DNA of 64,000 nucleotides, from the NCBI RefSeq assembly GCF_014700075.1, contig NZ_JACXBU010000002.1:558001-622000 (forward strand). Reading direction: 5' to 3'. Origin of the DNA: Pseudomonas sp. JM0905a (GTDB lineage: Bacteria > Pseudomonadota > Gammaproteobacteria > Pseudomonadales > Pseudomonadaceae). How positions within the stretch are numbered: the first letter of the stretch is position 1; every line of letters starts with the position of its first letter. Shown here one piece after another: positions 32,637 to 51,872 of this stretch. Both the position numbers and the translations under genes were made by a program. The notes under the pieces are model-generated. The model worked only from the letters and a program-made list of their open reading frames with translations. It was not told the origin of the DNA and searched no databases.

Positions 32637-32646
32637 TTGTACACAA
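32637..32646. promoter_or_regulatory. Class A operator upstream of the GntR gene
   Basis: TTGTACACAA, one base away from the palindromic core TTGTATACAA. It overlaps a -10-like TACAAT on the minus strand, upstream of the GntR gene at 31758-32528, so it would allow autoregulation. Its pattern fits the FadR-branch GntR consensus (t-n-GT ... AC-n-a). Confidence 0.6.
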
Positions 32647-32926
32647 TCATCCCTCCTTGAACAGTTTCGCAGCAGCTCCAACCTCATTCCTGACCGGTTG
32701 CACAGGTTTTTCCAGCAGGTTCCAACCAACTCGCTTCGAACGAGGGTTGAAGCGACAAACCTGCGGATTTCCCTACATTTTTTTGTCATAAGCGCGGCTG
32801 GCGCAGTGCCATTTCGTGCTTTCGCTCCCCTTCCTCCACACCACTCCTTTTTTGAGCTAATTCCATAAGCAATTGTTTTTTAACGACTTTATTAATTCGT
32901 TAGGCTGCAAATTGTCGCAGCCAAAT

Positions 32927-32942
32927 CTAACCACGTGGTCAG
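32927..32942. promoter_or_regulatory. Class B (RutR-like) operator upstream of the purine permease
   Basis: CTAACC-ACGT-GGTCAG matches the class B pattern yTGACC-N4-GGTCAG with one mismatch. It lies about 45 bp upstream of the permease -35 box, an activator-like distance. Confidence 0.5.
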
Positions 32943-32985
32943 CTTTCATTGATTGGTTCGTTTTTTCGAACATTGAAAACATTAT

Positions 32986-33013
32986 TTGTTTTTTTTGTAT
33001 ACAAAGGCATAAT
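32986..33013 (+). promoter_or_regulatory. Purine permease promoter with embedded class A operator
   Basis: A -35-like TTGTTT (32986-32991) and a -10-like CATAAT (33008-33013) are 16 bp apart. The perfect class A palindrome TTGTATACAA occupies 32995-33004, inside the spacer. A bound protein would occlude the promoter. Confidence 0.55.
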
Positions 33014-33027
33014 CGCGCCGTGACTTC

Positions 33028-33043
33028 CTGACTCTGCGGTCAA
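33028..33043. promoter_or_regulatory. Second class B operator at the purine permease promoter
   Basis: CTGACT-CTGC-GGTCAA has one mismatch in the left arm and a variant last base. It starts about 15 bp after the -10 box, near or just past the predicted transcription start. Confidence 0.45.
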
Positions 33044-33145
33044 GTATTCAGGCAAGTGCACCACTCACGCCATCCGCCTCAGTCAGTCCGGAGCCAGCTC
33101 CCGGCTCTGGGTGAACAAAACAAAAGAGATGAGGAGTACCACGCT

Positions 33146-34495
33146 GTGGAAAGCATCAAACAACAAGAACAAGGAACGTACGTCGCTACACCGCCCGCCC
33201 AGGGCCTGCTTGAACGTCTCTTCAAGCTCAGCCTGCACGGCACCACCGTGAAGACTGAACTGGCTGCAGGCCTGACCACCTTCATCACCATGGCCTACAT
33301 CATTTTCGTCAACCCGAACATCATGGCCGATGCCGGGATCGATCATGGCGCAGCCTTCGTTGCCACCTGCCTTGCCGCAGCCTTCGGCTGCCTCCTCATG
33401 GGCCTCTACGCCAACTGGCCGGTAGGCCTTGCTCCGGGCATGGGCCTGAACGCCTTCTTTACCTACACCGTGGTCAACACCATGGGCTACAGCTGGCAGA
33501 TCGCGCTTGGCGCGGTGTTCCTCTCCGGCGTGCTGTTCATGATCCTGACCTTCTCGCGAATCCGTGAATGGTTGCTCAACAGCATCCCGAGCAGCCTGCG
33601 CTTCGCGATGGGCGCGGGTGTGGGCCTGTTCCTCGGGCTGATCGGCCTGAAGACCGCCGGCATCGTGGTTGCCCACCCGGCCACCCTGGTGCACATCGGT
33701 GACCTGACCTCCCCCGGCCCGCTGCTGGCTGCCATCTGCTTCCTGATGATCGCGGTACTGGAATACCGCCGAATCTTCGGCGGCATCCTGATCAGCATCC
33801 TCACCGTGACCCTGATCGGTGTTGGCCTGGGCATCGTCAAGTTCGGCGGCGTGTTCTCCATGCCCCCGAGTCTGGCGCCGACCTTCATGGCCATGGACAT
33901 CACCGGCGCATTCAACGTGACCATGGTGAGCGTGATCCTTGCGTTCCTCTTCGTGCACATGTTCGACACCGCCGGCACCCTGATGGGCGTGGCCCAGCGT
34001 GCCAACCTGGTGCAGGAAGACGGTCGTATCGAGAACCTGTCCCGCGCCATGAAAGCGGACAGCGCCTCCAGCGTGTTCGGTGGCGTGCTCGGCGTACCGC
34101 CGGTCACCAGCTACGTAGAAAGTGCTGCGGGCGTTGCTGCCGGCGGCCGCACCGGCCTGACCGCAGTGACCGTGGGCATCCTGTTCATCGCCGCGATGTT
34201 CTTCGCCCCGCTGGCCGGCATGATCCCCGCCTACGCCACCGCCGGCGCACTGATCTATGTTGCGATGCTGATGATGGGCGGCATGGCCCACATCGACTGG
34301 AAGGAACACACCGAAACCATCCCGGCCATCGTGACCGTCATCATGATGCCGCTGACCTTCTCGGTCGCCGACGGTATCGCCCTGGGCTTCGTGACCTACG
34401 TCGCCATGAAGGCCTTCACCGGCAAGTGGAAGGAAGTCTCGGTGAGCCTGTACGCCCTCTGCGCCATCTTCGTGGCCAAGTTCATCTTCCTGTAA
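33146..34495 (+). CDS. NCS2 purine permease (AzgA type)
   Basis: A 449-residue inner-membrane transporter with about 12-14 membrane helices, of the AzgA-like branch that imports adenine, guanine or hypoxanthine. Typical motifs are A-G-L-T-T-F-I-T-M-A-Y-I-I-F-V-N-P (about 32-48), G-M-G-L-N-A-F-F near 94, F-D-T-A-G-T-L near 272 and P-V-T-S-Y-V-E-S-A-A-G near 319. The start is the GTG at 33146, 9 bp after GAGGAG; the frame stays open upstream but without a ribosome-binding site. Class A and B operators stand in its promoter. Confidence 0.93.
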   Translation: MESIKQQEQGTYVATPPAQGLLERLFKLSLHGTTVKTELAAGLTTFITMAYIIFVNPNIMADAGIDHGAAFVATCLAAAFGCLLMGLYANWPVGLAPGMGLNAFFTYTVVNTMGYSWQIALGAVFLSGVLFMILTFSRIREWLLNSIPSSLRFAMGAGVGLFLGLIGLKTAGIVVAHPATLVHIGDLTSPGPLLAAICFLMIAVLEYRRIFGGILISILTVTLIGVGLGIVKFGGVFSMPPSLAPTFMAMDITGAFNVTMVSVILAFLFVHMFDTAGTLMGVAQRANLVQEDGRIENLSRAMKADSASSVFGGVLGVPPVTSYVESAAGVAAGGRTGLTAVTVGILFIAAMFFAPLAGMIPAYATAGALIYVAMLMMGGMAHIDWKEHTETIPAIVTVIMMPLTFSVADGIALGFVTYVAMKAFTGKWKEVSVSLYALCAIFVAKFIFL

Positions 34496-34515
34496 TCGCA
34501 GATAGCGCTTCACCG

Positions 34516-34544
34516 GGCCCTGTCGCTTTGCGCCAGGGCCTTTT
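34516..34544 (+). terminator. Terminator of the purine permease gene
   Basis: GGCCCTG (34516-34522) pairs with CAGGGCC (34534-34540) and is followed by TTTTC. Confidence 0.85.
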
Positions 34545-36018
<1,474 letters not shown>

Positions 36019-36057
36019 CCACCCGGCCCAGCGCATCGGCCAACGGGAGGTGCCCCC

Positions 36058-36705
36058 ATGAACGCCCTGCGGCATGCCTGGAATCATTTCGAGGAAGGCC
36101 TCATCGCGTTCCTCCTTGCCGCGATGACCCTGGTGACGTTCGCCTACGTCGTCGTCAATAACCTCTACACGGTCTTCTACAACCTTGCAGATCGCTGGCC
36201 CGGCGCCAGCGCCCCCCTCTTCGCCATCGGCGACAGCATCATGAGTGCGGCCCAGGCCATGACCTGGAGCACCTCGCTGACCAAGGCCCTGTTCGCCTGG
36301 CTGATATTCTTCGGCCTCGCCTACGGCGTGCGCGTCGCGGGGCACATAGGCGTGGACACCCTGGTCAGGCTCACCCCGCGCCCGGCACAGCGAGTCCTCG
36401 GCATCATCGCCTGCAGCTGCTGCCTGGGTTATGCAGGATTGATGGCCGGCGCCAGCTTCGAGTGGATGCAGACGCTGATCGTCGCTGGCATCGGTGCGGA
36501 GGACCTGGGCCACTATGGCATCCAGCAATGGCACATCGGCCTGATCGTGCCGCTGGGCTTCACTCTCGTGTTGTTCCGCTATGCGGGGATCTTCGTGCGA
36601 ATCCTGCGACGCCGCCAGATAGGCCTGAACCTCGCCGACGAAACCGCCGAAGCCCTCAAGCTGGCCGAGCACGACGAACGTGCGCCTGAGGAAGAACGGC
36701 CATGA
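36058..36705 (+). CDS. dctQ: TRAP transporter small permease (DctQ family)
   Basis: A 215-residue four-helix membrane subunit of the sodium-driven TRAP transporter. Helices lie near 18-40, 75-100, 112-135 and 155-180. GGGAGGTG precedes the ATG. The stop overlaps the dctM start as ATGA, so the two permease subunits are translationally coupled. Confidence 0.9.
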   Translation: MNALRHAWNHFEEGLIAFLLAAMTLVTFAYVVVNNLYTVFYNLADRWPGASAPLFAIGDSIMSAAQAMTWSTSLTKALFAWLIFFGLAYGVRVAGHIGVDTLVRLTPRPAQRVLGIIACSCCLGYAGLMAGASFEWMQTLIVAGIGAEDLGHYGIQQWHIGLIVPLGFTLVLFRYAGIFVRILRRRQIGLNLADETAEALKLAEHDERAPEEERP

Positions 36706-37985: not shown

Positions 37986-38063
37986 TCCGTAGCGTGATTT
38001 CCCGAGAAGCGCTACCGCCTGGCGTTGCGCCGGTTGTTTTCGACCCGGCACTTTTCTGCAGGC

Positions 38064-38092
38064 GAAAAAAAGGCCCGCAGTGTGGACGGGCC
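38064..38092 (-). terminator. Terminator of hiuH
   Basis: GGCCCG (38072-38077) and CGGGCC (38087-38092) form the stem. On the minus strand a seven-base T run follows, ending the hiuH transcript. It may also weakly stop dctPQM transcription. Confidence 0.82.
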
Positions 38093-38133
38093 GTAAAAGA
38101 CTCCAGTGAGTCGAGGGTAACGAGTATTCGGTA

Positions 38134-38487
38134 CTAGCTGCCGCGATAGGTGGAATAGCTGTAGGGGGAGATCAACAGCGGCACGTGGTAGTGATCCTGC
38201 TCGGCGGAGATGCCGAAGCGCAGCACAACCACATCGAGGAAAGCGGGTTCGGCGAGCTTCACGCCACGGGCGCGGTAGTAGTCGCCGGCGTGGAAGTGGA
38301 TCTGGTAGACGCCGCTCTGGTAGTCGGCACCTTGCAGCACGGGCGCATCGCAACGGCCGTCATCGTTGGTCGTGGCGGTGGCGACCAGCTCCAGGCCCGC
38401 GCCTTCTACGCGATAGAGCTCGATCTTGATATCACGGCCAGGGCAGCCGTGGGCGGCATCCAGTACATGCGTAGTCAAACGTCCCAT
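38134..38487 (-). CDS. hiuH: 5-hydroxyisourate hydrolase (transthyretin-like)
   Basis: A 117-residue enzyme that hydrolyses 5-hydroxyisourate, the product of urate oxidation, to OHCU. It begins M-G-R-L-T-T-H-V-L-D with the catalytic His7, contains the H-Y-H-V-P-L-L-I-S-P block and ends in the conserved Y-R-G-S. The ATG at 38487 matches family N-termini. It is divergent from puuE and faces two regulatory palindromes. Confidence 0.95.
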   Translation of the reverse strand: MGRLTTHVLDAAHGCPGRDIKIELYRVEGAGLELVATATTNDDGRCDAPVLQGADYQSGVYQIHFHAGDYYRARGVKLAEPAFLDVVVLRFGISAEQDHYHVPLLISPYSYSTYRGS

Positions 38488-38642
38488 TGCTCGCTGGGCG
38501 TCTACCAGGCCATTGCGTGGCCAAGGCAGGAACGCCACACCTCCTCTGCTTGTTCATATCGGTGTGTGGTTGGGGTCGAAGCCCCGGTACGGAGCGCAGA
38601 ATAACATGCGATCGACGAAATGTAAGACATAAACTCAAAAAA

Positions 38643-38652
38643 TTGTACACAA
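38643..38652. promoter_or_regulatory. Class A operator on the hiuH side
   Basis: TTGTACACAA, 156 bp upstream of the hiuH start. It is the same variant as the site upstream of the GntR gene. Confidence 0.55.
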
Positions 38653-38745
38653 TCTCCACACCATATACTGCCGAGCCTTTGCGACGACTGGCTCCACCAG
38701 GATTTACGTGCACCGGCCAGCCATTGGGCCTTCTGTGATGCAGAC

Positions 38746-38761: not shown

Positions 38762-38805
38762 GTTCGTTGACCGAACGCGAAATGTCGAATCAGACAAAGA
38801 TTTGA

Positions 38806-38835
38806 TTTACAAAACGCATGACAGTTTGTATACAA
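38806..38835 (+). promoter_or_regulatory. puuE promoter overlapped by a class A operator
   Basis: A -35 TTTACA (38806-38811) and -10 TATACA (38829-38834) are 17 bp apart. The perfect palindrome TTGTATACAA (38826-38835) covers the -10 box, a repressor position. Confidence 0.65.
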
Positions 38836-38908: not shown

Positions 38909-39838
38909 GTGAGCGCCGAGTACCCACGCGACCTGATCGGTTACGGCAACAATCCTCCCCACCCGCACTGGCCGGGTGAGTCCCGCATCGCCCTGTCCTT
39001 TGTCCTCAACTACGAGGAAGGTGGCGAGCGCAATGTGCTCCACGGCGACAAGGAATCCGAAGCCTTCCTGTCCGAGATGGTGGCCGCCCAGCCGCTGCAG
39101 GGCGTGCGCAACATGAGCATGGAATCCCTCTACGAGTACGGCAGCCGCGCAGGTGTCTGGCGCCTGCTGAACCTGTTCAAGCAGCACGACATTCCCCTGA
39201 CCATCTTCGCCGTCGCCATGGCCGCCCAGCGCCACCCGGACGTGATCCGCGCCATGGTCGAAGCCGGCCACGAGATCTGCAGCCACGGCTACCGCTGGAT
39301 CGACTACCAGTACATGGACGAGGCCCAGGAGCGCGAGCACATGCTCGAAGCCATCCGCATCCTCACCGAACTGACCGGCGAGCGCCCGGTGGGCTGGTAT
39401 ACCGGCCGTACCGGCCCGAACACCCGTCGCCTGGTGATGGAGGAAGGCGGCTTCCTCTACGACTCCGACACCTACGACGACGACCTGCCCTATTGGGACC
39501 CGGCCAGCACCGCTGAGAAGCCGCACCTGGTCATCCCTTACACCCTGGACACCAACGACATGCGTTTCACCCAGGTACAGGGTTTCAACAAGGGCGACGA
39601 CTTCTTCGAGTACCTCAAGGACGCCTTCGACGTGCTCTACGCGGAAGGCAGCGCCGGCGCGCCGAAGATGCTGTCCATCGGCATGCACTGCCGCCTGCTG
39701 GGCCGTCCGGCTCGCCTCGCCTCCCTGGCGCGCTTCATCGAGTACGTGAAGGGCCACGAGAAAGTCTGGTTCGCCCGCCGCGCCGACATCGCCCGCCACT
39801 GGCACGCCACCCACCCGTTCAAAGAGCAAGCCAAATGA
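38909..39838 (+). CDS. puuE: Allantoinase PuuE (polysaccharide-deacetylase type)
   Basis: A 309-residue metal-independent-type allantoinase that opens allantoin to allantoate. It belongs to the NodB/polysaccharide-deacetylase fold rather than the amidohydrolase allantoinases. Signature blocks are Y-P-R-D-L-I-G-Y-G near 5-13, H-G-Y-R-W-I-D-Y near 128-135 and Y-T-G-R-T-G-P-N-T-R-R near 167-177. The start is GTG, with AAGGAAGA just upstream. It overlaps uraD by 4 bp (ATGA). Confidence 0.94.
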   Translation: MSAEYPRDLIGYGNNPPHPHWPGESRIALSFVLNYEEGGERNVLHGDKESEAFLSEMVAAQPLQGVRNMSMESLYEYGSRAGVWRLLNLFKQHDIPLTIFAVAMAAQRHPDVIRAMVEAGHEICSHGYRWIDYQYMDEAQEREHMLEAIRILTELTGERPVGWYTGRTGPNTRRLVMEEGGFLYDSDTYDDDLPYWDPASTAEKPHLVIPYTLDTNDMRFTQVQGFNKGDDFFEYLKDAFDVLYAEGSAGAPKMLSIGMHCRLLGRPARLASLARFIEYVKGHEKVWFARRADIARHWHATHPFKEQAK

Positions 39839-40350
39839 GCCGCTTCCAGACCCTGACCCCGTCCACCCTGTCCCGCGAAGCCTTCGTCGAAGCATTCGCC
39901 GACATCTACGAGCACTCGCCCTGGGTTGCCGAGAAGGCCTTCGACCTGGGTCAAGACGACCGCATCGACGAAATCGACGGCCTGCACCAGCGCATGGCCG
40001 ACCTCTTGCTCAGTGCCAGCCATGAAGCCCAGCTGGCACTGATCAACGCTCACCCGGACCTGGCCGGCAAGGCAGCCGTCCGTGGCGAGCTGACCGAAGC
40101 CAGCACCAGCGAACAAGCCGGTGCCGGTATCCACGAATGCACGGCTGAAGAGTTCGCACGCTTCACCGAGCTGAACGACGCCTACAAGGCCAAGTTCGGG
40201 TTTCCTTTCATCATGGCGGTGAAAGGCAGCAACCGGCACCAGATCCTGGCGGCCTTCGAGGAGCGGATCCACAACTCTCCTGAAGTCGAGTTCTCCAGGG
40301 CGCTGGCCGAGATCAACAAGATCGCGCTGTTCCGTCTGCAGCAGATGTAA
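39835..40350 (+). CDS. uraD: OHCU decarboxylase
   Basis: A 171-residue enzyme that decarboxylates 2-oxo-4-hydroxy-4-carboxy-5-ureidoimidazoline to S-allantoin. The conserved N-A-H-P-D-L-A-G-K-A near 71-80 includes the catalytic histidine (His73), and S-T-S-E-Q-A-G-A-G follows near 93. It is coupled to puuE by an ATGA overlap. In P. aeruginosa, as I recall, allantoicase follows at this point; here the next gene is allA. Confidence 0.94.
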   Translation: MSRFQTLTPSTLSREAFVEAFADIYEHSPWVAEKAFDLGQDDRIDEIDGLHQRMADLLLSASHEAQLALINAHPDLAGKAAVRGELTEASTSEQAGAGIHECTAEEFARFTELNDAYKAKFGFPFIMAVKGSNRHQILAAFEERIHNSPEVEFSRALAEINKIALFRLQQM

Positions 40351-40461
40351 GCCGCAGTCGCACCGCTCCTATTCGAGACCGGGTGGGCAACGGCCCGCCC
40401 ATCGGCTCTCCACCTAATCGGAGAGCCACGGGGGAGGATGGAAATACCGCCCTCTCCACCA

Positions 40462-40490
40462 GCCCCTCCCCCTCGCGGGATGGGAACCAG
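40462..40490 (+). repeat. GC-rich spacer repeat upstream of allA
   Basis: The core GCCCCTCCCCCTCGCGGGAT and the following GGGAACCAG are shared with the spacer before hyi, and the core also with the spacer before guaD. The rest of the 161-bp uraD-allA gap is GC-rich and non-coding. Confidence 0.45.
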
Positions 40491-40511
40491 CAACGAACAA
40501 GTAGAACAGCC

Positions 40512-41015
40512 ATGCGAACCCTGAAGATCGAGCCCCTGACCAAAGAAGCCTTCGCCCCCTTCGGAGATGTGATCGAAACCGACGGCAGCGAGTACTTCAT
40601 GATCAACAACGGCTCCACCCGCCGTTATCACAAGCTGGCCACGGTCGAGACCGCCCAGCCCGACGACAAGGCAATCATCAGCATCTTCAGCGCCGAATCC
40701 CTCGAGATGCCTTTGCGCATCCGCATGCTGGAACGACATCCGCAGGGCAGCCAGGCTTTCATTCCGCTGCTCGGCAACTCCTTTCTGGTCGTGGTCGCGC
40801 CAATTGGCGATGTACCTGTACCGGGCTTGGTCCGTGCCTTCCTCTCCAATGGCAGGCAGGGCGTTAATTACCATCGCGGCGTCTGGCACCACCCGGTGCT
40901 GACGATCGAAAAGCGGGATGACTTCCTGGTGGTTGATCGCAGTGGTTCTGGCAACAACTGCGACGAGCATTACTTCACTGAGGACGAGCAACTGCTCCTC
41001 GACCCCCACCACTAA
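40512..41015 (+). CDS. allA: Ureidoglycolate lyase
   Basis: A 167-residue cupin-like enzyme splitting ureidoglycolate into glyoxylate and urea. It begins M-R-T-L-K-I-E-P-L-T-K-E-A-F and contains F-I-P-L near 79-82 and the conserved Y-H-R-G-V-W-H-H-P near 119-127. Its substrate normally comes from allantoicase, which is not encoded in the window. The ribosome-binding site is poor. Confidence 0.93.
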   Translation: MRTLKIEPLTKEAFAPFGDVIETDGSEYFMINNGSTRRYHKLATVETAQPDDKAIISIFSAESLEMPLRIRMLERHPQGSQAFIPLLGNSFLVVVAPIGDVPVPGLVRAFLSNGRQGVNYHRGVWHHPVLTIEKRDDFLVVDRSGSGNNCDEHYFTEDEQLLLDPHH

Positions 41016-41067
41016 TAAGAGAAGCCCAACGATCGGCGTGCCGGTCGGCGGGAAAGAGGTAACAACT

Positions 41068-42375
41068 GTGGAAGCACATCTGATCGAATGGCTGAACCTG
41101 AGCATTCGCTGGGTTCACATGATCACCGGTATCGCCTGGATCGGCGCATCCTTCTATTTCGTCTGGCTGGAGAACAACCTCAACCGCGCCAACCCGCGCG
41201 ACGGGCTGTCGGGTGACCTCTGGGCCATCCACGGTGGCGGTATCTACCACCTGGAGAAATACAAGCTCGCCCCGCCGAAAATGCCGGACAACCTGCACTG
41301 GTTCAAATGGGAAGCCTATTTCACCTGGTTGTCGGGCGTTGCCCTGCTGACTGTGGTGTTCTACCTGAACCCGACCCTGTACCTGATCGCACCCGGCGTG
41401 GACATTGCTCCGGCTACCGCCGTCGCCATCGGCATCGGCTCGCTGGTCGCAGGCTGGTTCATCTATGACTTCCTCTGCGACTCGCCGCTGGGCAAGACCC
41501 CCGCATTGCTCGGCCTGGTGCTGTTCGTACTGATCGTCGGCGCGGCCTGGGGCTTCACCCATGTGTTCAGCGGCCGTGGCTCTTACATCCATGTCGGCGC
41601 CCTGATCGGCACCATCATGGTCGGCAACGTGTTCCGCATCATCATGCCGGCCCAGCGCGCGCTGGTTAAAGCCATCGAAGAAAACCGCACCCCGGACCCG
41701 GTCCTGCCGGCCAAGGGTCTGCTGCGTTCGCGCCACAACAACTACTTCACCCTGCCGGTGCTGTTCATCATGATCAGCAACCACTTCCCGAGCACCTACG
41801 GTAGCCAGTACAACTGGCTGATCCTGGCCGGGATTGCGGTACTCGCGGTACTGGTGCGCCACTACTTCAACACCCGCCACGACAGCAACAAGTTCGCCTG
41901 GACCCTGCCGGCCGGCGCCCTGGGCATGATCTGCCTGGCGTTCGTCACCGCGCCGAACTACAAGGCCGTCGAACCGAGCGTTGCCGTGGAGCCCGGCCAC
42001 CAGGAGCAAGCCGCTCCCGCCGCCAGCAGCGCCGCTGCCCCGGCCAGCGAAAGCAAGCCTCAGGCTGCCGCACCGGCTGAATCCGCCGCCCCAGCCCAGG
42101 CCAGTGCCACCGGCTCTGACTTCGGCAAGGTCCACAGCGTGATCCAGGAGCGCTGCGCCGTCTGCCATTCCGCCAAGCCCTCCAGCCCGATGTTCACTTC
42201 GGCTCCGGGCGGCGTGATGCTCGACACCCCGCAGCAGATCCAGATGCTCGCACCGAAGATCCAGGCCCAGGCAGTCGCCAGCCAGATCATGCCGTTGGGC
42301 AACATCACCCAGATGACCCAGGAAGAGCGTGACCTGATTGGCCGCTGGATCGCCCAAGGCGCCAAGACCAACTGA
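41068..42375 (+). CDS. puuD: Membrane urate oxidase with cytochrome c domain (PuuD)
   Basis: A 435-residue protein. Residues 1-298 are a membrane domain of about eight helices (W-V-H-M-I-T-G-I-A-W-I-G-A-S-F-Y-F near 15-31). An Ala/Pro-rich linker (about 300-350) leads to a cytochrome c domain with heme motif C363-A-V-C366-H367. Such proteins oxidise urate to 5-hydroxyisourate and pass electrons to the respiratory chain, replacing soluble uricase. The start is the GTG at 41068, 8 bp after GAGGT. It completes urate breakdown together with hiuH and uraD. Confidence 0.92.
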   Translation: MEAHLIEWLNLSIRWVHMITGIAWIGASFYFVWLENNLNRANPRDGLSGDLWAIHGGGIYHLEKYKLAPPKMPDNLHWFKWEAYFTWLSGVALLTVVFYLNPTLYLIAPGVDIAPATAVAIGIGSLVAGWFIYDFLCDSPLGKTPALLGLVLFVLIVGAAWGFTHVFSGRGSYIHVGALIGTIMVGNVFRIIMPAQRALVKAIEENRTPDPVLPAKGLLRSRHNNYFTLPVLFIMISNHFPSTYGSQYNWLILAGIAVLAVLVRHYFNTRHDSNKFAWTLPAGALGMICLAFVTAPNYKAVEPSVAVEPGHQEQAAPAASSAAAPASESKPQAAAPAESAAPAQASATGSDFGKVHSVIQERCAVCHSAKPSSPMFTSAPGGVMLDTPQQIQMLAPKIQAQAVASQIMPLGNITQMTQEERDLIGRWIAQGAKTN

Positions 42376-42449
42376 GCATCAAGGGGACCTGCAACATCGG
42401 CTCCCCCAATGACCACGGCAGGCGGTGACCCCAAGCACCGCCTGCTTTA

Positions 42450-42479
42450 AAGCCTGCCCCCCAGGCGGGCTTCTTTTTC
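42450..42479 (+). terminator. Terminator after puuD
   Basis: AAGCCTGCC (42450-42458) pairs with GGCGGGCTT (42464-42472) and is followed by CTTTTTC. Confidence 0.88.
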
Positions 42480-42610
42480 TTCCAGTAGAACCCGCAGTCC
42501 CCCGCCGGGTGCCACCCACCCGGCCAGCAACATGAATACCCGGCAAGCTGAACCCACGAGGTGCGGCATTGCCAAGCGACTTACAAGAACAAAAGCGCCC
42601 GAGGTGTTGC

Positions 42611-43957
42611 ATGACCCCAACGACAGAGCGAGAAATCGCCCTTTCGCCCGCTGACCAGCGCCTGCCCCTGATGCAATTGCTGCTTGTCGGTTTCCAGCAT
42701 GTCCTGCTGATGTACGGTGGCGCCGTTGCCGTACCCCTGATCGTCGGCCAGGCCGCCGGTCTGTCCCGTGAAGAAATCGCCTTCCTGATCAATGCCGACC
42801 TGCTGGTCGCCGGTATCGCCACCATCATCCAGTCCATCGGCATCGGTCCGGTGGGCATCCGCATGCCGGTGATGATGGGCGCGAGCTTCGCCGCCGTGGG
42901 CAGCATGGTGGTGATGGCCGGGATGCCCGGCGTCGGTATCCAGGGCATCTTCGGTGCCACCATCGCCGCCGGCTTCTTCGGCCTTCTGCTCGCCCCCTTC
43001 ATGTCGCGCATCGTGCGCTTCTTCCCGCCGCTGGTGACCGGTACCGTGATCACCTCCATCGGCCTCACCCTCTTCCCGGTTGCGGTCAACTGGGCAGGTG
43101 GCGGTAGCCAGGCCAGCCACTTCGGTGCCCTGGAATACCTGTCCATCGCCGCTCTGGTACTGGGCACCATCCTGCTGGTGAACCGCTTCCTCAAGGGTTT
43201 CTGGGTGAACGTCTCGGTACTGATCGGCATGGCTCTGGGTTACGCCCTGGCCGGCGCCTGCGGAATGGTCGACCTCAATGGACTGGACGAGACTCCCTGG
43301 TTCCAGGTGGTGGAGCCTCTTCACTTCGGCATGCCGAAGTTCGAGCTGGCCTCGGTGCTGTCTATGTGTCTGGTGGTGGTGATCATCTTCGTCGAGTCCA
43401 CCGGCATGTTCCTTGCCCTGGGCAAGATCACCGGTCGCGAAGTCTGTCCCAACGCACTGCGTCGCGGCTTGATGTGCGACGCTGGCGCCTCCTTCCTGGC
43501 GGGTTTCTTCAACACCTTCACCCATTCGTCCTTCGCCCAGAACATTGGGCTGGTGCAGATGACTGGTGTCCGCAGCCGCTATGTCACGGTCGCCGCAGGT
43601 GCCTTTCTGATCGGCCTGAGCCTGCTGCCCAAAGCCGCCTTCCTGGTCGCTTCGATTCCGCCGGCAGTGCTCGGTGGTGCGGGTCTGGCGATGTTCGGCA
43701 TGGTGGCCGCAACCGGCATCAAGATCCTCCACGAAGCGGATATCAGCGACCGTCGTAATCAATTGCTGGTAGCCGTCAGCATGGGAATGGGCATGGCGCC
43801 GGTGGTTCGCCCCGAACTCTTCGCCCAGCTGCCCCACTGGATGGAGCCGATCACCCATAGCGGCATCGCCATGGCCACTGTCAGCGCCCTCACCCTGAAC
43901 CTGCTGTTCAACATCCTGGGCGAGAAGGAGCGCAGCCGGCACTGCGCCGCCCACTAA
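42611..43957 (+). CDS. NCS2 permease for urate/xanthine (UacT/UapA-like)
   Basis: A 448-residue transporter of the nucleobase-ascorbate branch of NCS2. It carries the signature Q-N-I-G-L-V-Q-M-T-G-V-R-S-R-Y-V near 310-325 and the substrate-site V-E-S-T-G-M-F near 264. Proteins of this type import urate or xanthine with protons, which fits its place next to puuD. The ATG at 42611 has GAGG 8 bp upstream. An in-frame TTG at 42569 lacks a ribosome-binding site. Confidence 0.92.
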   Translation: MTPTTEREIALSPADQRLPLMQLLLVGFQHVLLMYGGAVAVPLIVGQAAGLSREEIAFLINADLLVAGIATIIQSIGIGPVGIRMPVMMGASFAAVGSMVVMAGMPGVGIQGIFGATIAAGFFGLLLAPFMSRIVRFFPPLVTGTVITSIGLTLFPVAVNWAGGGSQASHFGALEYLSIAALVLGTILLVNRFLKGFWVNVSVLIGMALGYALAGACGMVDLNGLDETPWFQVVEPLHFGMPKFELASVLSMCLVVVIIFVESTGMFLALGKITGREVCPNALRRGLMCDAGASFLAGFFNTFTHSSFAQNIGLVQMTGVRSRYVTVAAGAFLIGLSLLPKAAFLVASIPPAVLGGAGLAMFGMVAATGIKILHEADISDRRNQLLVAVSMGMGMAPVVRPELFAQLPHWMEPITHSGIAMATVSALTLNLLFNILGEKERSRHCAAH

Positions 43958-44130: not shown

Positions 44131-44982
44131 ATGCTTCGCTATCCCGCCCTGGCGCTTGGTGCCGTCCTGATCGCCTCCACTCCGACCAGCTTTGCCGCTG
44201 AAAACGGCAAGTTCTTCGAGTGGACGAGCAACAGCGTCGGCTTCCGTTACGGCCAGCAGTTCACCAACCCGAACAATCCGGACAAGTTTGCCAAGCGGAT
44301 CTACAGCTTCACCCACGCCGACGGCTACCGGTACGGCAGCAACTTCTTCAACCTGGACGTATTCCTCTCCGACAGCCGCGACCCGCGCAAGGGCACCGAT
44401 CACGGCGGTAGCGAGGTCTACGCGGTCTACCGGCACCAGTTGTTCGCCTCGCGGGTATTCGACCAGCCCCTGGGCACAGGCCTGATCAAGGACTACGCCT
44501 TCACCCTCGGCTTCGACGCCAACCGCAACAACAACCTGGCCTCGGCCAAGAAGCGCGCTGTGGTTTTCGGCCCGACCCTCAAGTTCAACGGTGCCGCTGT
44601 GCTCGACCTGAGCCTGATGTACTACCGCGAGAAGAACCACTCGGGTATCCCCAGTGCGAAGCACCCGGACCACACCTTCGATGCAACCTACATGGTCAAC
44701 GTGACCTGGCTGAAACCCTTCCAGCTGGGTGATCGCGACGCCAAGTTCCAGGGCTTCGTCAACTACGTGGGGGAAAAGGGCGAGGACTACTTCGACAAGG
44801 ACACCGCGCCGGAAACCCTGATGCGGACCTCGCTGATGGTCGCCGCATTGCCCGGCGCCAAGCGCAAGCCGAACCTGTGGCTGGGTGTTGGCTACGAGTA
44901 CTGGCACAACAAATTCGGCGTCGACGGCGGCCGTGGCAGCCGCACCTCGACGCCGACGGTGAACCTGGAATTCACCTTCTGA
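44131..44982 (+). CDS. Tsx/OmpK-family outer-membrane channel, copy 1
   Basis: A 283-residue outer-membrane barrel of the nucleoside-specific channel (Tsx/OmpK) family. It has a signal peptide (about 1-23, T-S-F-A-A), the family start W-T-S-N-S-V-G-F-R-Y-G, F-T-H-A-D-G-Y-R-Y-G-S-N-F-F near 69-82 and a C-terminal phenylalanine for barrel insertion. AAGGAG precedes the ATG. It follows the urate/xanthine permease, so it may admit purines or nucleosides. A second family member lies tail-to-tail with it. Confidence 0.88.
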   Translation: MLRYPALALGAVLIASTPTSFAAENGKFFEWTSNSVGFRYGQQFTNPNNPDKFAKRIYSFTHADGYRYGSNFFNLDVFLSDSRDPRKGTDHGGSEVYAVYRHQLFASRVFDQPLGTGLIKDYAFTLGFDANRNNNLASAKKRAVVFGPTLKFNGAAVLDLSLMYYREKNHSGIPSAKHPDHTFDATYMVNVTWLKPFQLGDRDAKFQGFVNYVGEKGEDYFDKDTAPETLMRTSLMVAALPGAKRKPNLWLGVGYEYWHNKFGVDGGRGSRTSTPTVNLEFTF

Positions 44983-45234: not shown

Positions 45235-46044
45235 TCAGAAGTGCACCTTGACCAGCAGGCTGGCGGTGTTCTGGTCGGTACCATCGAGGATCTCGTCACC
45301 CAGGAAGCTCTCGCTGTCGATACCGTACTTGTCCTTCCAGTAGTCGTACTCGAAACCAACGTAGAGCTGCTTCTCGCCCCAACCCATGGCCTTGCCCAGG
45401 TCGTACTTCACCTGCGGGTTGAAGTGCAGGTTGGCGTGGTAAGTGCCGCGATCGTTCTCGTCGTTGTCCACCACCCAGTCCATGAAGCCATCGATCAGGA
45501 TGTCGGAGTTGCCCACCGGAATGGTGTAGCTCCACACCGGAGTGATCTGCCACACGTCGTCGCCCGGACGGCTGCCGTCGGTCTGGCGGTTGTAGAAGTT
45601 GACCTGGAAGTAGTCGAAGCCGGGAACGGCCAGGTCGAAGCCCGGACCGATCAGGTAGGACTCGACGTCGCCTTCACCGAACTCGTAGGTCATGGCCAGC
45701 AGCACATCGGTCACCGGACCGAACTGGATCTTCTGGTCGAATATCTTGCCGAGGGACAGGCGCGGCTGGAATTCGCCGTAGTAGGTGTTGTCGCCGACCT
45801 GCGCATCCTTGTCACCGTTGTAGAAGATCTTGTCCAGGAAGAAGAAGTTATCGCCGTACTTCCAGCCATCCGCGTGCTCGAAGGTCACGGTCTGCTGGAT
45901 CTCCGGATTGACCTTGAAGTTCTGGCCATAGAGGTAGGTCAGGCTGTTGTTCTGCCAGAACAGCAGGTCACCGGCGATGGCCTGGCCGCCTCCGAGCAAT
46001 CCGGTCGTGAGGGCGAGGCAGTGCGGCAGATACTTGGCATTCAT
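45235..46044 (-). CDS. Tsx/OmpK-family outer-membrane channel, copy 2
   Basis: A 269-residue barrel protein with a signal peptide (about 1-25, A-I-A-G), the family start W-Q-N-N-S-L-T-Y-L-Y-G and a C-terminal K-V-H-F. It is only distantly similar to copy 1. AAGGG stands upstream of the ATG. The best promoter lies over 550 bp upstream (46601-46629) and is flanked by class A and class B operators, which links this channel to the purine regulon. Confidence 0.88.
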   Translation of the reverse strand: MNAKYLPHCLALTTGLLGGGQAIAGDLLFWQNNSLTYLYGQNFKVNPEIQQTVTFEHADGWKYGDNFFFLDKIFYNGDKDAQVGDNTYYGEFQPRLSLGKIFDQKIQFGPVTDVLLAMTYEFGEGDVESYLIGPGFDLAVPGFDYFQVNFYNRQTDGSRPGDDVWQITPVWSYTIPVGNSDILIDGFMDWVVDNDENDRGTYHANLHFNPQVKYDLGKAMGWGEKQLYVGFEYDYWKDKYGIDSESFLGDEILDGTDQNTASLLVKVHF

Positions 46045-46574
46045 GGTTTTTCCCTTGTTGTAGTGGTGTAGGTTTCAGTTTTTCCACCCCGCACCCGCCC
46101 GAGACCCGCCCTTGGTCAGGGCAGGCTGCAGGCGGGTTCGGGACCGGAGGGAGTTACGCGCGCCGGGCGTCAGCCAGTAAGGCCGAGGCTGCAGTGGCGA
46201 GCGATACCGGACGGGCTGTCTTCAGCGTTGCGCTGTTCGGCTGCATCCAGGGGGTACTGCTGAACCTCGTTTACCGAGGTCAGGAAGACGAATTGTTCTG
46301 CACGTGAATGGTTCAGCGGCTGGCCGAAAAGTCCGGGCAGACCTGCTGCAGGCAACGTCGCAGTAGCGATACCGGACGCGCGCATGGATAGGGGCTGGTG
46401 AACGGCGATGAGGCGATGCCTCGGCCGTCGACGGCCTTGCCGGCCGTGGCGGAGTTCGGAGCGAACCCCGAAGGTGTCGGATGAACTCATGGGTAAAGCC
46501 TGCCTATTGTTTTTGTCGGTCGTGGGCTTACAGGGTGGCGATGAACACCCCATGTAGTTAGTCATCGGAAAAAG

Positions 46575-46590
46575 CTGATCTGGCGGTCAG
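46575..46590. promoter_or_regulatory. Class B (RutR-like) operator at the Tsx-like copy 2 promoter
   Basis: CTGATC-TGGC-GGTCAG, one mismatch to the class B pattern. It lies just downstream of the predicted transcription start on the minus strand. Confidence 0.45.
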
Positions 46591-46600
46591 GTTTTTCTGA

Positions 46601-46629
46601 ATTATATACACGCTGCGAACATCACAAAC
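46601..46629 (-). promoter_or_regulatory. Promoter upstream of Tsx-like copy 2
   Basis: A perfect -10 TATAAT (46606-46601) with -35-like sequences GTTTGT (46629-46624, 17-bp spacing) or TTTGTG (16-bp spacing). A transcript from here would carry a leader of about 550 nt before the channel gene. Confidence 0.5.
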
Positions 46630-46646
46630 AACACTTTCTTTCAGAA

Positions 46647-46656
46647 TTGTGTACAA
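46647..46656. promoter_or_regulatory. Class A operator upstream of the Tsx-like copy 2 promoter
   Basis: TTGTGTACAA, about 20 bp upstream of the -35 region on the minus strand. Confidence 0.5.
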
Positions 46657-46723
46657 ACTGCCGAGCGAGGTTCCGCCTGATTCGCGCTGAATGGCTCTGG
46701 CACGGGCTTGCAGGCGATGCAGG

Positions 46724-47542: not shown

Positions 47543-47608
47543 GACCTCCTCCTTGTTCTTCTTGGGCGGGGTAGACAGGAGCGGGATCACCCCGCTCCCG
47601 GTGGCGAG

Positions 47609-48967
47609 TTACTCGCCGGACACCAGTTGGCGCGCCAGCTGGTTGTGGCGCTCCAGTACCCGCGGCAGATCCACGGTGACCAGATGGCCATCGCGCACCA
47701 CTACCTTGCCGTTGATCACGCTGGTGGAAACGTGGGTCGGGGTGCAGAACACCAGCGCCGCCAGCGGGTCATGCAGGGCACCTGCATAGGCGACGTGATT
47801 GAGGTCGAAGGCCACGAAGTCCGCGACCATGCCCGGCGCCAGGGCGCCGATATCGTCGCGGTTGAGTACCTTGGCACCGCCCAGGGTGGCGATTTCCAGG
47901 GCCTCGCGGGCCGTCATGGCATCCGGACCGAAGCCCACACGTTGCAGCAGCAGCGCCTGGCGCACCTCGCCAATCATGCTGGCGCCGTCGTTCGAGGCCG
48001 AACCGTCCACACCCAGGCCTACCGGCACGCCGGCATCGCGCATGCGGCGGACCGGGGCGATACCGGAAGCCAGGCGCATGTTCGAGCAGGGGCAGTGAGC
48101 AACGCCGGTGCCGGTGCGGGCGAACAGCTCGATGCCGTGCTCGTCCAGCTGCACGCAGTGGGCGTGCCAGACATCGTGGCCGACCCAGCCCAGGTCTTCG
48201 GCATATTCGGCTGGCGTCATGCCGAACTTCTCGCGGCTGTAGGCGATGTCGTTGACGTTCTCGGCCAGGTGCGTGTGCAGGGAAACCCCGTATTGACGGG
48301 CCAGGACCGCGGCTTCGCGCATCAGGTCGCGGCTCACCGAGAAGGGCGAGCACGGTGCTACCACCACCCGCAGCATCGAGCCGTGGGAAGCGTCGTGGTA
48401 ATCCTCGATCAGGCGCTGGGATTCCTTGAGGATGTCGGCTTCCTTCTCCACCACGGAATCCGGCGGCAGTCCGCCCTGGCTGCGGCCGACACTCATGCTG
48501 CCGCGCGCGGCGTGGAAGCGCATGCCGATCTCACCGGCGGCGTGGATGCTGTCATCCAGCTTGCAGCCGTTGGGGTAGATGTAGAGGTGGTCGCTGGAGG
48601 TGGTGCAGCCGGAAAGGATCAGCTCAGCCATCGCGGTCTGGGTGGAAACGCCGATCATCTCTGGAGTCAGGCGCGCCCAGATCGGGTACAGGTTGGTGAG
48701 CCAGTTGAACAGCTCGCCATCCTGGGCCGCCGGCACCACGCGGGTAAGACTCTGGTACATGTGGTGGTGGGTGTTGACTAGGCCGGGGATGACGATCTTG
48801 CCCTTCATATCCAGCACTTCGTCGGCACTCTGCGGCAGCTCGCTGCTCGGTCCGACCTGCACGATGCGGTTGTCCTCGATGAACATCCCGCCCTGCCGGA
48901 TCTCCCGGCGCCGGCCATCCATGGTCACCAGCAGGTCGGCGTTCTTCACCAATAGCGTCTTGCCCAT
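47609..48967 (-). CDS. 8-oxoguanine deaminase
   Basis: A 452-residue amidohydrolase resembling the characterised P. aeruginosa Pa0142, which deaminates 8-oxoguanine to urate. Metal-site motifs are N-T-H-H-H-M-Y-Q-S-L near 64-73, H-T-H-L-A-E-N near 230-236, H-A-H-C near 266-269 and G-V-D-G-S-A-S-N-D near 317-325. GAAGGAG lies before the ATG. The product would enter the urate branch encoded next door. It is distinct from guaD in the same window. Confidence 0.85.
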   Translation of the reverse strand: MGKTLLVKNADLLVTMDGRRREIRQGGMFIEDNRIVQVGPSSELPQSADEVLDMKGKIVIPGLVNTHHHMYQSLTRVVPAAQDGELFNWLTNLYPIWARLTPEMIGVSTQTAMAELILSGCTTSSDHLYIYPNGCKLDDSIHAAGEIGMRFHAARGSMSVGRSQGGLPPDSVVEKEADILKESQRLIEDYHDASHGSMLRVVVAPCSPFSVSRDLMREAAVLARQYGVSLHTHLAENVNDIAYSREKFGMTPAEYAEDLGWVGHDVWHAHCVQLDEHGIELFARTGTGVAHCPCSNMRLASGIAPVRRMRDAGVPVGLGVDGSASNDGASMIGEVRQALLLQRVGFGPDAMTAREALEIATLGGAKVLNRDDIGALAPGMVADFVAFDLNHVAYAGALHDPLAALVFCTPTHVSTSVINGKVVVRDGHLVTVDLPRVLERHNQLARQLVSGE

Positions 48968-49122
48968 GCGTATTCTCCTTCGCCTCGAAAGCGATCTTGT
49001 TTTCAATATTCAGAAAGGAACGGGGTCCTTGGGGGACGCCATGGCAAGGCGCGTCATCGAAGACAGTAGGTCTCCTACCGCGAGATGACGTAACGCAGCC
49101 AGGGCTAACCCAAGAAGCTCGA

Positions 49123-50118
49123 TCAGCCGCCGGTCATGCTCATGAAGCGAACAACCTGGACCTGGGAGTCCGCTTGGAAATGGTGCCGCTCAGGCTTGAG
49201 CCTGAGGGCATCGATCAACGCCGCGCGCAGCCGCTCGCCATCGCCGGGGTGACGACGGATCAGCGCCTTGAGGTCCAGCGCGCCTTCGTGACCGAGGCAG
49301 AGCACCAGCTTGCCTTCGGCGGTGACGCGCACACGGTTGCAGTCGCCGCAGAAGTTGCGGCTATGAGGCGAGATGAAGCCGACCTGGGTCTCACTGCCAA
49401 CCACCTGGTAGTAGCGCGAAGGCCCGCCGGTGCGGTAGCTGCTGGGCAATAGCTGGAAGCGCTGCTCCACTCGCTCGCGCACTTCTTCCGAGGTGCAGAG
49501 GGTGACTTTGCGCTCGTGGCTGGAGACGCTGCCGAGGGGCATCTCCTCGATGAAGCTGATATCCAGCCCGCAGTCCACCGCAAAGGCGACGAGGTCCTGA
49601 ACTTCGTCATCGTTGCGGCCTTTCTGTACCACGGTGTTCAGCTTGATCCGACGAAATCCGGCAGCACGCGCAGCGTCGATGCCGGTCAGCACCTGGTCGA
49701 GACGATCGCGACGGGTGAAGGCGGCGAAACGCTCGCGCTGCAGGGAATCGAGGCTGATGTTAAGACGGGTGACCCCGGCCTTGCGCAGGTCGGCGGCCAT
49801 GTGACCGAGCTGGGAACCGTTGCTGGTGATGGCCAGGTCTTCCAACTCCTGGCGGGCGCCCAGGCGCGTCAGCAGCGAGTTCAGCCCCTTGCGTACCAAC
49901 GGCTCGCCGCCAGTGATGCGGATGCGCTTCACGCCGAGGCCGATGAAGGCATCAGCGACTGCGTAGAGTTCCTCAAGACTGAGGATCTGCGCCCGAGGTG
50001 CGAAGACCATGTCTTCGCTCATGCAGTAGGTGCAACGGAAGTCGCAGCGGTCAGTGACCGAGAGGCGCAGGTAGGAAATTCGACGCCCGAAGGGATCGAG
50101 CAAGTGGTTGTCTTGCAT
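49123..50118 (-). CDS. moaA: GTP 3',8-cyclase MoaA
   Basis: A 331-residue radical SAM enzyme that starts molybdenum cofactor synthesis. The SAM cluster motif is C-D-F-R-C-T-Y-C, the second cluster F-C-G-D-C-N-R-V-R plus C-L, and the C-terminal Gly-Gly required for activity is intact (M-S-M-T-G-G). The ATG at 50118 fits family N-termini. XdhAB needs this cofactor, so a moaA copy in a purine region makes sense; the genus often has a second copy elsewhere. Confidence 0.95.
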   Translation of the reverse strand: MQDNHLLDPFGRRISYLRLSVTDRCDFRCTYCMSEDMVFAPRAQILSLEELYAVADAFIGLGVKRIRITGGEPLVRKGLNSLLTRLGARQELEDLAITSNGSQLGHMAADLRKAGVTRLNISLDSLQRERFAAFTRRDRLDQVLTGIDAARAAGFRRIKLNTVVQKGRNDDEVQDLVAFAVDCGLDISFIEEMPLGSVSSHERKVTLCTSEEVRERVEQRFQLLPSSYRTGGPSRYYQVVGSETQVGFISPHSRNFCGDCNRVRVTAEGKLVLCLGHEGALDLKALIRRHPGDGERLRAALIDALRLKPERHHFQADSQVQVVRFMSMTGG

Positions 50119-50199
50119 GGGTGACGTCTGCCGCAACACGCACCGGACAGGACTCCGATGACATGGACGGATGCCGAATGGAAACAGAATCAAAACTTT

Positions 50200-50209
50200 T
50201 TGTATACAG
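50200..50209. promoter_or_regulatory. Class A operator between moaA and the TetR gene
   Basis: TTGTATACAG, one mismatch to the palindrome TTGTATACAA. It lies 82 bp upstream of moaA and 111 bp upstream of the TetR start. Confidence 0.5.
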
Positions 50210-50319
50210 GAAATTCATCCAGTGGCTCGCTTGAGAGCCCTGCAAAGCGGGTGATAACATGCCCGACCTCTCGCCGGCCGGCCTTCCTGGCGCCCGGGCG
50301 AGTCAGACAAGGAGCCGAT

Positions 50320-50949
50320 GTGAGTAGCATTCGCGAGCGCAACAGAGACCTCATCCTGCGCGCGGCCAGCGAGGAATTCGCCGAAAAAGGGTTCGCCGCC
50401 ACCAAGACGAGCGACATCGCGGCCAAGGCCGGCCTGCCCAAGCCCAACGTCTACTACTACTTCAAGTCTAAAGAGAACCTCTACCGCGAGGTCCTCGAGA
50501 GCATCGTCGAGCCTCTGCTGCAGGCGTCCGTGCCCTTCAATCAGGCCGGCCACCCCCATGAAGTGCTCACGGCCTATATCCGCTCGAAGATCCGCATCTC
50601 CCGCGACCTGCCCTACGCTTCCAAGGTGTTCGCCAGCGAGATCATGCACGGTGCCCCACACCTCTCGCAGGAACAGACCGAGCACCTCAACCTGCAAGCC
50701 AAGCACAACATCGAGTGCATCCAGGGCTGGATCGATCAGGGCCTGATGGCCAAGGTCGACCCCCATCACCTGCTGTTCAGCATCTGGGCGGCAACCCAGA
50801 CCTATGCCGACTTCGATTGGCAGATTTCCACCGTCACCGGCAAGCCCAGCCTCAGCGACGCCGACTATGACGCCGCCGCGGAAACCATCATCCGCCTGGT
50901 GATCAAGGGCTGTGAAGTGGAAGAAAAGGTTTCGGCGAAGAGCGCCTGA
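50320..50949 (+). CDS. TetR-family regulator, RutR-like
   Basis: A 209-residue regulator with an N-terminal helix-turn-helix (about 7-54, T-S-D-I-A-A-K-A-G-L-P-K-P-N-V-Y-Y-Y-F) and a ligand domain whose F-A-S-E-I-M-H-G-A-P-H-L block resembles RutR. RutR of E. coli senses uracil and thymine and controls pyrimidine and purine catabolism. Six sites matching its operator occur in purine promoters of this window. The start is GTG with AAGGAG 6 bp upstream. No class B site was found at its own gene. Confidence 0.85.
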   Translation: MSSIRERNRDLILRAASEEFAEKGFAATKTSDIAAKAGLPKPNVYYYFKSKENLYREVLESIVEPLLQASVPFNQAGHPHEVLTAYIRSKIRISRDLPYASKVFASEIMHGAPHLSQEQTEHLNLQAKHNIECIQGWIDQGLMAKVDPHHLLFSIWAATQTYADFDWQISTVTGKPSLSDADYDAAAETIIRLVIKGCEVEEKVSAKSA

Positions 50950-51022
50950 TACCGACTGCACCGGCCCCTACAGAAAAGCAGCCGCTTCCAGCCATAGTCG
51001 CGATTTGCCCCCCCCTAAAGAC

Positions 51023-51068
51023 TTCGCCCCCACAGAGATGCACTCCCTGTGGGGGCGAATTCATTCGC
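51023..51068. repeat. Extragenic palindrome between TetR and DUF336 genes
   Basis: TTCGCCCCCACAG (51023-51035) pairs perfectly with CTGTGGGGGCGAA (51047-51059). It overlaps a second palindrome, GCGAATTCATTCGC (51055-51068). There is no T run, so it is a REP-like element rather than a terminator. Confidence 0.7.
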
Positions 51069-51098
51069 TGAGGGCTGCGCAGCAGCCCCTATCAAGCG

Positions 51099-51536
51099 TC
51101 AGGCCGCGCCAGCGTCCGCCTTCAGGCCGGCCGCTTCTACCGCGCTGACTGCGCACTGCTCGTCGATATCGGACGTATCGCCGCTGATGCCAATGGCGCC
51201 GATCACGACTCCATGACCATCACGGATCAGCACACCGCCCGGTGCCGGCACCAGGTTGCCGTCGGCCAGATTGTTCACCGCACCGATGAAGGCCGGACGC
51301 TGCTGCGCGTCGGCAGCGATCAGGCGCGACCCCTTGCCCAGGGCCACTGCGCCCCACGCCTTGCCGATGGCGATTTGCGGTCGAAGCATGCTGGCGCCGT
51401 CCTGGCGCTGCAGGGTGATCAGGTGGCCGCCGGCATCCAGCACGGCGATGGTCAGCGGTGCCGTGCGCAGCTCGCGACCAACGGTCAGGGCATGGTTGGA
51501 AATGCTCACAGCGGTTTCCAGGGTCAGGGTGGTCAT
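51099..51536 (-). CDS. Heme-binding DUF336 protein (GlcG/HbpS family)
   Basis: A 145-residue protein of the GlcG/HbpS family, with A-V-L-D-A-G-G-H-L-I near 32-41, R-P-Q-I-A-I-G-K-A-W-G-A near 54-65 and G-G-V-L-I near 104. Members often sit beside glycolate or glyoxylate genes and some bind heme, but their role is unclear. It is divergent from gcl, with two class A operators between them. GAGGAACG precedes the ATG at 51536. Confidence 0.85.
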   Translation of the reverse strand: MTTLTLETAVSISNHALTVGRELRTAPLTIAVLDAGGHLITLQRQDGASMLRPQIAIGKAWGAVALGKGSRLIAADAQQRPAFIGAVNNLADGNLVPAPGGVLIRDGHGVVIGAIGISGDTSDIDEQCAVSAVEAAGLKADAGAA

Positions 51537-51713
51537 TTTCAAGCGTTCCTCGTGAGTGGTTGAACCTTGTGCGGCGTCGTCTGGGCCAGGGCTGGCGCAT
51601 TCCTGTATCCACGCGGGCGTTTTCCAGCCCATCCTGCGACGCATCCGAAAGCTGTAGCTCACTATCCCACCGAACACAAAAAAATCAACAGATAGATACA
51701 ATCACATTATTTT

Positions 51714-51723
51714 TTGTATACAG
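51714..51723. promoter_or_regulatory. Class A operator, distal site between DUF336 and gcl
   Basis: TTGTATACAG, one mismatch to the palindrome. It is 178 bp from the DUF336 gene and 175 bp from gcl, so it may act on either. Confidence 0.5.
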
Positions 51724-51819
51724 TATTTCCGTCAGCGTTCTGACTATCGCTGGAGAGCCCCGTAAAACAGGCGTTTTAAAAGAGTCGACACCCTGCGACC
51801 TTTAGCCTCACAAATGGCC

Positions 51820-51849
51820 TTGACCCTTCAGTCAGACGATGAATAGAAT
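51820..51849 (+). promoter_or_regulatory. gcl promoter with overlapping class B operator
   Basis: A -35 TTGACC (51820-51825) and a -10 TAGAAT (51844-51849) are 18 bp apart. TTGACC-CTTC-AGTCAG (51820-51835) is a class B operator covering the -35, in the same geometry as at xdhA. Confidence 0.6.
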
Positions 51850-51862
51850 CCAGCCACGTAGC

Positions 51863-51872
51863 TTGTATACAA
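51863..51872. promoter_or_regulatory. Class A operator proximal to gcl
   Basis: A perfect TTGTATACAA just downstream of the predicted gcl transcription start and 26 bp before the start codon, a road-block position. Confidence 0.6.

Follow-up and report, generated by a model that had tools for sequence, protein, structure and literature searches.

In Pseudomonas aeruginosa, UgmR (PA1520) is reported to repress urate and glyoxylate genes, with relief by uric acid, and to bind DNA upstream of both gcl and the allantoin cluster PA1513-PA1518 (PMC12694930, in part). In P. putida KT2440, GclR (PP_4283), a GntR-family repressor whose gene and the gcl cluster are some 12 kb apart, is tied to xanthine metabolism (PMC13357446, in part). 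Here we analyze a 64,000-nucleotide stretch of the Pseudomonas sp. JM0905a genome (the window), in which eight palindromes of the TTGTATACAA class lie near purine-catabolism genes and near a gene for a GntR/FCD regulator (31758..32528, minus strand). We propose with high confidence that the eight palindromes are operators of this UgmR/GclR-type GntR-FCD repressor. Binding in this species, and the targets outside the window, we infer from sequence; repression and its relief by urate would carry over by analogy from the excerpted papers on the orthologue.

Like the UgmR system, as far as the excerpts describe it, the locus has a GntR-family repressor gene beside a purine permease gene; unlike the accounts of UgmR, the present analysis gives the motif site by site and adds further predicted targets. 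With GclR, as portrayed in the same partial source, it shares an orthologous GntR repressor and the link to gcl and xanthine; GclR, however, was studied for growth on ethylene glycol, and the accessible part of PMC13357446 shows no operator map. The letters TTGTATACAA occur in PMC6615863, and PA1520 is mentioned once, in another setting, in PMC13086498, and not at all in the main text of PMC8041468.

The regulator combines an N-terminal GntR domain (PF00392, 64.3 bits; cut-off 27) with a C-terminal FCD domain (PF07729, 82.7 bits; cut-off 24.3), as expected for the FadR branch of GntR proteins, whose operators the palindromes fit according to the original prediction. Operators of this branch are palindromic with a GT...AC core, and the TTGTATACAA class fits that description. 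The protein shares 98-99% identity with its counterparts in Pseudomonas resinovorans DSM 21078 and strains near it, and is 81% identical to P. aeruginosa protein P0066, which differs from it by one residue in the helix-turn-helix (HTH) stretch, as read by eye. Of the four PA1520 primers printed in PMC1173109 (source seen in part), three translate exactly into P0066, whereas the translation of the fourth departs from it at a single residue. The neighbourhood expected for UgmR/GclR, namely purine permease, hiuH, puuE, uraD and gcl, is present. As judged by these comparisons, the protein encoded at 31758-32528 is the orthologue of UgmR (PA1520) and GclR (PP_4283). Given the 81% identity, the primer match to PA1520 and the equivalence of PP_4283 and GclR, the core of our finding is already known for these orthologues. 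What is new here is a set of predicted targets: a McpH-type chemoreceptor, a second xanthine permease, moaC, a VOC/ABM gene pair, an NCS1 permease of relatives, and a RutR-like TetR gene.

Ten other GntR-like matches in the genome are much weaker; the strongest of them reaches 37% identity. This paralogue (L183, L008; G000 C5:2947-3636) has two TGA stops in the match and a differing HTH; a TTGCATACAA variant lies 130 bp from it (C5:3766), and two more variants occur at C5:61833 and 62045.

All eight palindromes named in the original prediction are present at their positions. Upstream of the regulator, 109 bp from its start, TTGTACACAA (32637..32646) is identical in 17/17 aligned relatives, and TTGTATACAA in the permease promoter (32995..33004) is identical in 13/17, the other four reading TTGTGTACAA/TTGTACACAA. 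On the hiuH side, TTGTACACAA (38643..38652) is kept in 14/15 relatives, and at the puuE -10 TTGTATACAA (38826..38835) is kept in 15/15. The candidate operator upstream of a small open reading frame (ORF) and a Tsx-like gene reads TTGTGTACAA (46647..46656; 13/14). TTGTATACAG occurs twice, between moaA and the TetR gene (50200..50209; 11/11) and on the HbpS-like side (51714..51723; 8/9), and TTGTATACAA recurs at gcl (51863..51872; 9/9). Taken together, 100/107 aligned sites are letter-for-letter identical, in counts that leave out alignments under 80 bits. The proposed consensus TTGTAyACAA stands for six sites, which fit TTGTNNACAA exactly; those at 50200 and 51714, as TTGTATACAG, are one letter off, and the site at 46647 matches TTGTAYACAA on the minus strand only. 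In 17 same-genus relatives, the genes keep their order and the sites are found again throughout the part of the locus that was retrieved, the exceptions being one changed letter at the hiuH site in L118 and the TTGTGTACAA form of the permease site in L118-L121. In those same-genus genomes (G004, G008, G009 and G017), the regulator is only 76-77% identical and the motif upstream of it is the same.

The sites lie in AT-rich intergenic DNA of a 5.79 Mb genome with 63% guanine plus cytosine, a setting in which promoter DNA might yield palindromes by chance. However, at one mismatch or fewer the window contains these eight places and no other, giving 16 strand-hits against a mean of 1.08 and a maximum of 4 in 100 shuffles of the window, and the 80 named loci, which are the best 80 of a longer match list and span 1.54 Mb, hold 198 motifs as whole loci against 0 for a reversed control. 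With the letter-for-letter conservation, these counts refute chance, to which we assign a negligible probability. A matrix built from the eight sites scores them at 17.4-20.6 and the next window site at 10.7. The matrix scan covered the 64 kb window, and the genome-wide counts are pattern scans: TTGTATACAA occurs six times in the genome, three of them in the window, and TTGTACACAA/TTGTGTACAA three times, all within it. Hits in coding sequence as often as in promoters had been named beforehand as refuting the regulon; in the window matrix scan, 0/8 sites lie inside genes with the starts used here, a result in favor of the regulon as far as the window goes. Only in the longest mechanical ORF, 50158-50949, would the site at 50200 fall inside the TetR coding sequence, but relatives in genomes of genus g14 align only from residue 55 or 38 of this ORF, and a later start was chosen. 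A candidate for the xdh operon, TTTTCTACAA at 25026, about 190 bp upstream of xdhA, was also discarded with a score of 10.7 against at least 17.4; with nothing comparable to the eight sites at this operon, some other control would govern xanthine dehydrogenase. The pattern scan of the window at one mismatch or fewer gave no site at the TRAP transporter genes, and no further exact site lies among the puuE to pbuX genes (38909..43957).

The regulator and the motif travel together. In 78/80 named loci, a copy of the motif is found no more than 300 bp upstream of the regulator gene, in keeping with the original observation that the regulator has a site of its own; the two loci missing it are L043 and L094, and L094 has only 136 bp of upstream DNA. 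We surveyed 158 Pseudomonadaceae genomes, calling the regulator at E≤1e-60 and scoring at most 16 candidates per genome, and found it in 80. Uncorrected for kinship, the count in these 80 genomes is 428 for TTGTATACAA and 20 for the reversed control, compared with 92 and 68 in the 78 genomes lacking a regulator match. Regulator-less genomes in otherwise regulator-bearing genera (two in g14, one in g15) carry 1, 0 and 0 copies of TTGTATACAA, and puuE is missing from them too. The gene puuE is present in 15 of 28 genomes that lack a regulator match, and no exact site precedes puuE in the g16, g17, g10 and g12 genomes examined, all without such a match. In three g14 genomes (G089, G134, G045), 18 of 23 exact sites follow the same genes through rearrangements; in three of g9 (G153, G025, G157), 17 of 21 do so when moaC (3) and VOC/ABM (2) are counted, and 12 of 21 otherwise. 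The conserved autoregulatory sites, this co-occurrence, and the sites before a xanthine permease and a chemoreceptor described below all favor the protein of 31758-32528 as the cognate regulator, as originally proposed.

Several observations weigh against this assignment. First, genus g6 has an exact site before puuE in 7/7 genomes and a regulator match at E≤1e-60 in none, and the roughly 20 kb of flanking DNA read in three of these genomes holds no homologue at E≤1e-8. In g5, where an exact site precedes puuE in 3/3 genomes without a regulator match, the sites accompany a homologue only about 40% identical, nearby in 3/3 genomes and with its own upstream TTGTATACAA in 2/3. Second, exact sites stand before non-purine genes in the three g14 genomes (5/23) and the three g9 genomes (4/21). 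Third, the flanks of the sites at 50200, 51714 and 51863 are themselves 87-94% identical, which makes conservation a weak test there. Finally, allantoin induces gcl in a way that reportedly does not involve UgmR (PMC12694930, in part), and P. umsongensis GO16 grew on ethylene glycol as before when its regulator, 89% identical to this one, was deleted (PMC13357446, in part).

The g6 and g5 sites, present without a close regulator, suggest that this site probably also serves regulators that are less closely related. One or more different GntR-FCD paralogues might read the palindrome, which would then be a shared site and not the mark of one regulon. The g6 hiuH/puuE sites fit that alternative, as do the second regulator homologue at 45-53% identity in several g14 genomes and the sites borne by g14 azurin-like and other non-purine genes. 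However, in this genome the next regulator-like match reaches only 37% identity, departs from the regulator in its HTH and has a variant, TTGCATACAA, 130 bp away, and motif enrichment tracks the regulator across genera. We consequently judge a paralogue reading these sites to be unlikely, and retain the UgmR/GclR orthologue as the repressor that would act at the eight palindromes.

Among the non-purine cases, TTGTATACAA precedes an azurin-like gene at L194, L201 and L208 in three g14 genomes. The names of this gene, and of the genes at the dacA-side (L213, L215, L220) and gdhA-side (L218) sites, are our presumptive readings of the sequences, made outside any family scan. At the non-purine sites of L193, L209, L212, L126 and L136, none of the query proteins used matched a gene.

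The positions of the sites relative to promoters suggest how repression could operate. At the permease the site lies in the spacer of a promoter that reads TTGTTT-16-CATAAT; at puuE it covers the -10 of TTTACA-17-TATACA; and at gcl it lies just downstream of TTGACC-18-TAGAAT, in agreement with all three placements first proposed. The broader claim of control-region placement needs one qualification: some 600 bp, including the small ORF 46173-46490, separate the 'Tsx' site at 46647 from the start of the tsx-like gene at 46044. A repressor dimer, as the palindrome and the protein family imply, would sit on or beside these promoters and block its own gene, the purine permease, hiuH, puuE, the Tsx-like gene, moaA, the TetR gene, the HbpS-like gene and gcl, hindering RNA polymerase at the permease, puuE and gcl promoters. 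A purine metabolite would release it; for the P. aeruginosa orthologue this is reported to be uric acid. Release by urate fits the predicted targets, because most of them take purines up, work at urate or later in the pathway, or, like 8-oxoguanine deaminase, lead to urate. Rigid looping between the paired hiuH-puuE sites was considered and set aside, since their spacing differs among relatives, from 181-183 bp in the majority of loci to, for example, 236 bp in L198, and a fixed phase is therefore unlikely.

Outside the window, the genome has three exact TTGTATACAA sites, at a xanthine permease (L006), a chemoreceptor (L005) and a VOC/ABM pair (L004), and each recurs before the same genes in 3/3 relatives (G002, G003, G006). 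The L006 site is 67 bp from the gene for a second xanthine permease (pbuX model, 505 bits; cut-off 414). The L004 site (G000 C39:346931) lies between divergent VOC (glyoxalase fold) and ABM genes and is present also in G004. Genera g1 and g9 share TTGTATACAA at this pair (L124, L129, L134, L137, L214, L263). In relatives, an NCS1 permease gene lies behind a site; at L123 the family scan gave 284.6 bits, below the ncs1 cut-off of 353.1, and at L200, L203 and L205 the call is by similarity, while L128, L133 and L141 share the flank only.

The L005 site lies 52 bp from the chemoreceptor gene. Like McpH (PP_0320), the purine receptor of P. putida, this chemoreceptor has a McpH-like ligand domain (E=4e-79 against PDB 8bmv) and a dCache_1 domain. 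The McpH motif comprises Y121, R129, W140, F167 and D169, and the D169N exchange weakens adenine binding 80-fold; Asn is described as frequent at position 169 (PMC11245519, in part). By eye, four of the five residues are kept in the L005 chemoreceptor, which, unlike McpH, has Asn at the D169 position. A McpH-type receptor was found in 22 of 36 further genomes, 12 of the 22 with a site (one mismatch or fewer) within 100 bp upstream; in all, 16 matches lie within 100 bp upstream of McpH-type receptors against 3 in all the remaining 86.5 kb. The site is missing in 6/7 McpH homologues of the g9 genomes examined. The mcpH transcript is said to be raised by purines (PMC6363813, in part, citing Lopez-Farfan 2017), and we found no paper in the open-licence literature that links mcpH to UgmR/GclR. 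If the chemoreceptor is indeed a target, this would provide a mechanism for the purine-raised mcpH transcript and place sensing and catabolism under one repressor.

An operator-like site also lies upstream of moaC (L014/L164, G000 C11:616447), in 18/18 g1 genomes, 15 of them reading CTGTATACAA and 3 exact; further moaC loci with a site are L165-L181, L216, L217 and L264. Some sites, that of moaC above all, might instead be -10 elements (TATACAAT) that are conserved as parts of promoters and only look like the operator: at moaC, CTGTATACAAT can be read as a -10 box, with C at position 1 in 15/18 g1 genomes, and the puuE site does contain a -10. However, the sites take various positions relative to promoters, some before, some within and some after them; both half-sites are conserved, even in TTGTACACAA forms that make a poor -10; and at moaC the full palindrome is present in 3/18 g1 and in 3/3 g9 genomes examined. 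We judge this explanation of the sites very improbable; the moaC site itself may be an operator or a -10 element.

It is an even call, in our view, whether one urate-responsive repressor coordinates purine seeking, uptake, breakdown and molybdenum cofactor supply, and controls the RutR-like regulator in a cascade that could explain the induction of gcl by allantoin. Seeking would fall to the McpH-type chemoreceptor, uptake to several permeases and Tsx-like channels, and breakdown to the series of enzymes that starts with 8-oxoguanine deaminase and ends with glyoxylate carboligase. The cofactor of xanthine dehydrogenase would come from moaA and possibly moaC. A second regulatory layer is suggested by the site that separates moaA from the RutR-like TetR gene; PA1504, the orthologue of this TetR gene, is a named candidate for the allantoin response in the available part of PMC12694930. 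Should the RutR-like gene be a target, it would offer a direct test of how allantoin induces gcl. More generally, the analysis provides a testable list of operators and targets for a repressor relevant to purine use and, as GclR, to ethylene glycol use in Pseudomonas.

The genes next to the sites were assigned by family scans, with starts chosen by us, partly from alignments of relatives. On the plus strand are a Xan_ur_permease-family transporter (uapC-like; 33056..34495, PF00860); the run of puuE, uraD, ureidoglycolate lyase, puuD-type urate oxidase and pbuX xanthine permease (38909..43957); the RutR-like TetR-family regulator (50320..50949, start from relatives); and gcl, glyoxylate carboligase (51898..53673; TIGR01504, 1169 bits; cut-off 711). 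The best family for the TetR gene is TIGR03613 RutR at 169 bits, below the cut-off of 368, so that it falls short of a curated RutR assignment. On the minus strand are hiuH, 5-hydroxyisourate hydrolase (38134..38538, PF00576); the Tsx-like channel (45235..46044, PF03502); 8-oxoguanine deaminase (47609..49006; NF006055, 773 bits; cut-off 532), downstream of moaA; moaA, for molybdenum cofactor synthesis (49123..50121; TIGR02666, 368 bits; cut-off 284), its start picked from relatives, whose alignment begins at residue 25; and the HbpS-like (DUF336) gene (51099..51539; PF03928, start from relatives). The region also holds xdh genes, a guanine deaminase, a TRAP transporter and a solute-binding protein. 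Downstream of pbuX, the gene at 44131-44982 (plus strand) appears by eye to encode a second Tsx-type outer-membrane channel and gave no Pfam hit.

Between the candidate operator at 46647 and the Tsx-like gene lies the small ORF of 106 amino acids (46173..46490, minus strand), for which no Pfam family was found. A 131-residue ORF at 46170-46565 was rejected as the gene before tsx; stops precede the inner Met in L108 and L113, and the start was therefore set at 46490. The ends of the small ORF product are conserved and its middle is fast-changing among 15 homologues, the named ones from Pseudomonas or Metapseudomonas.

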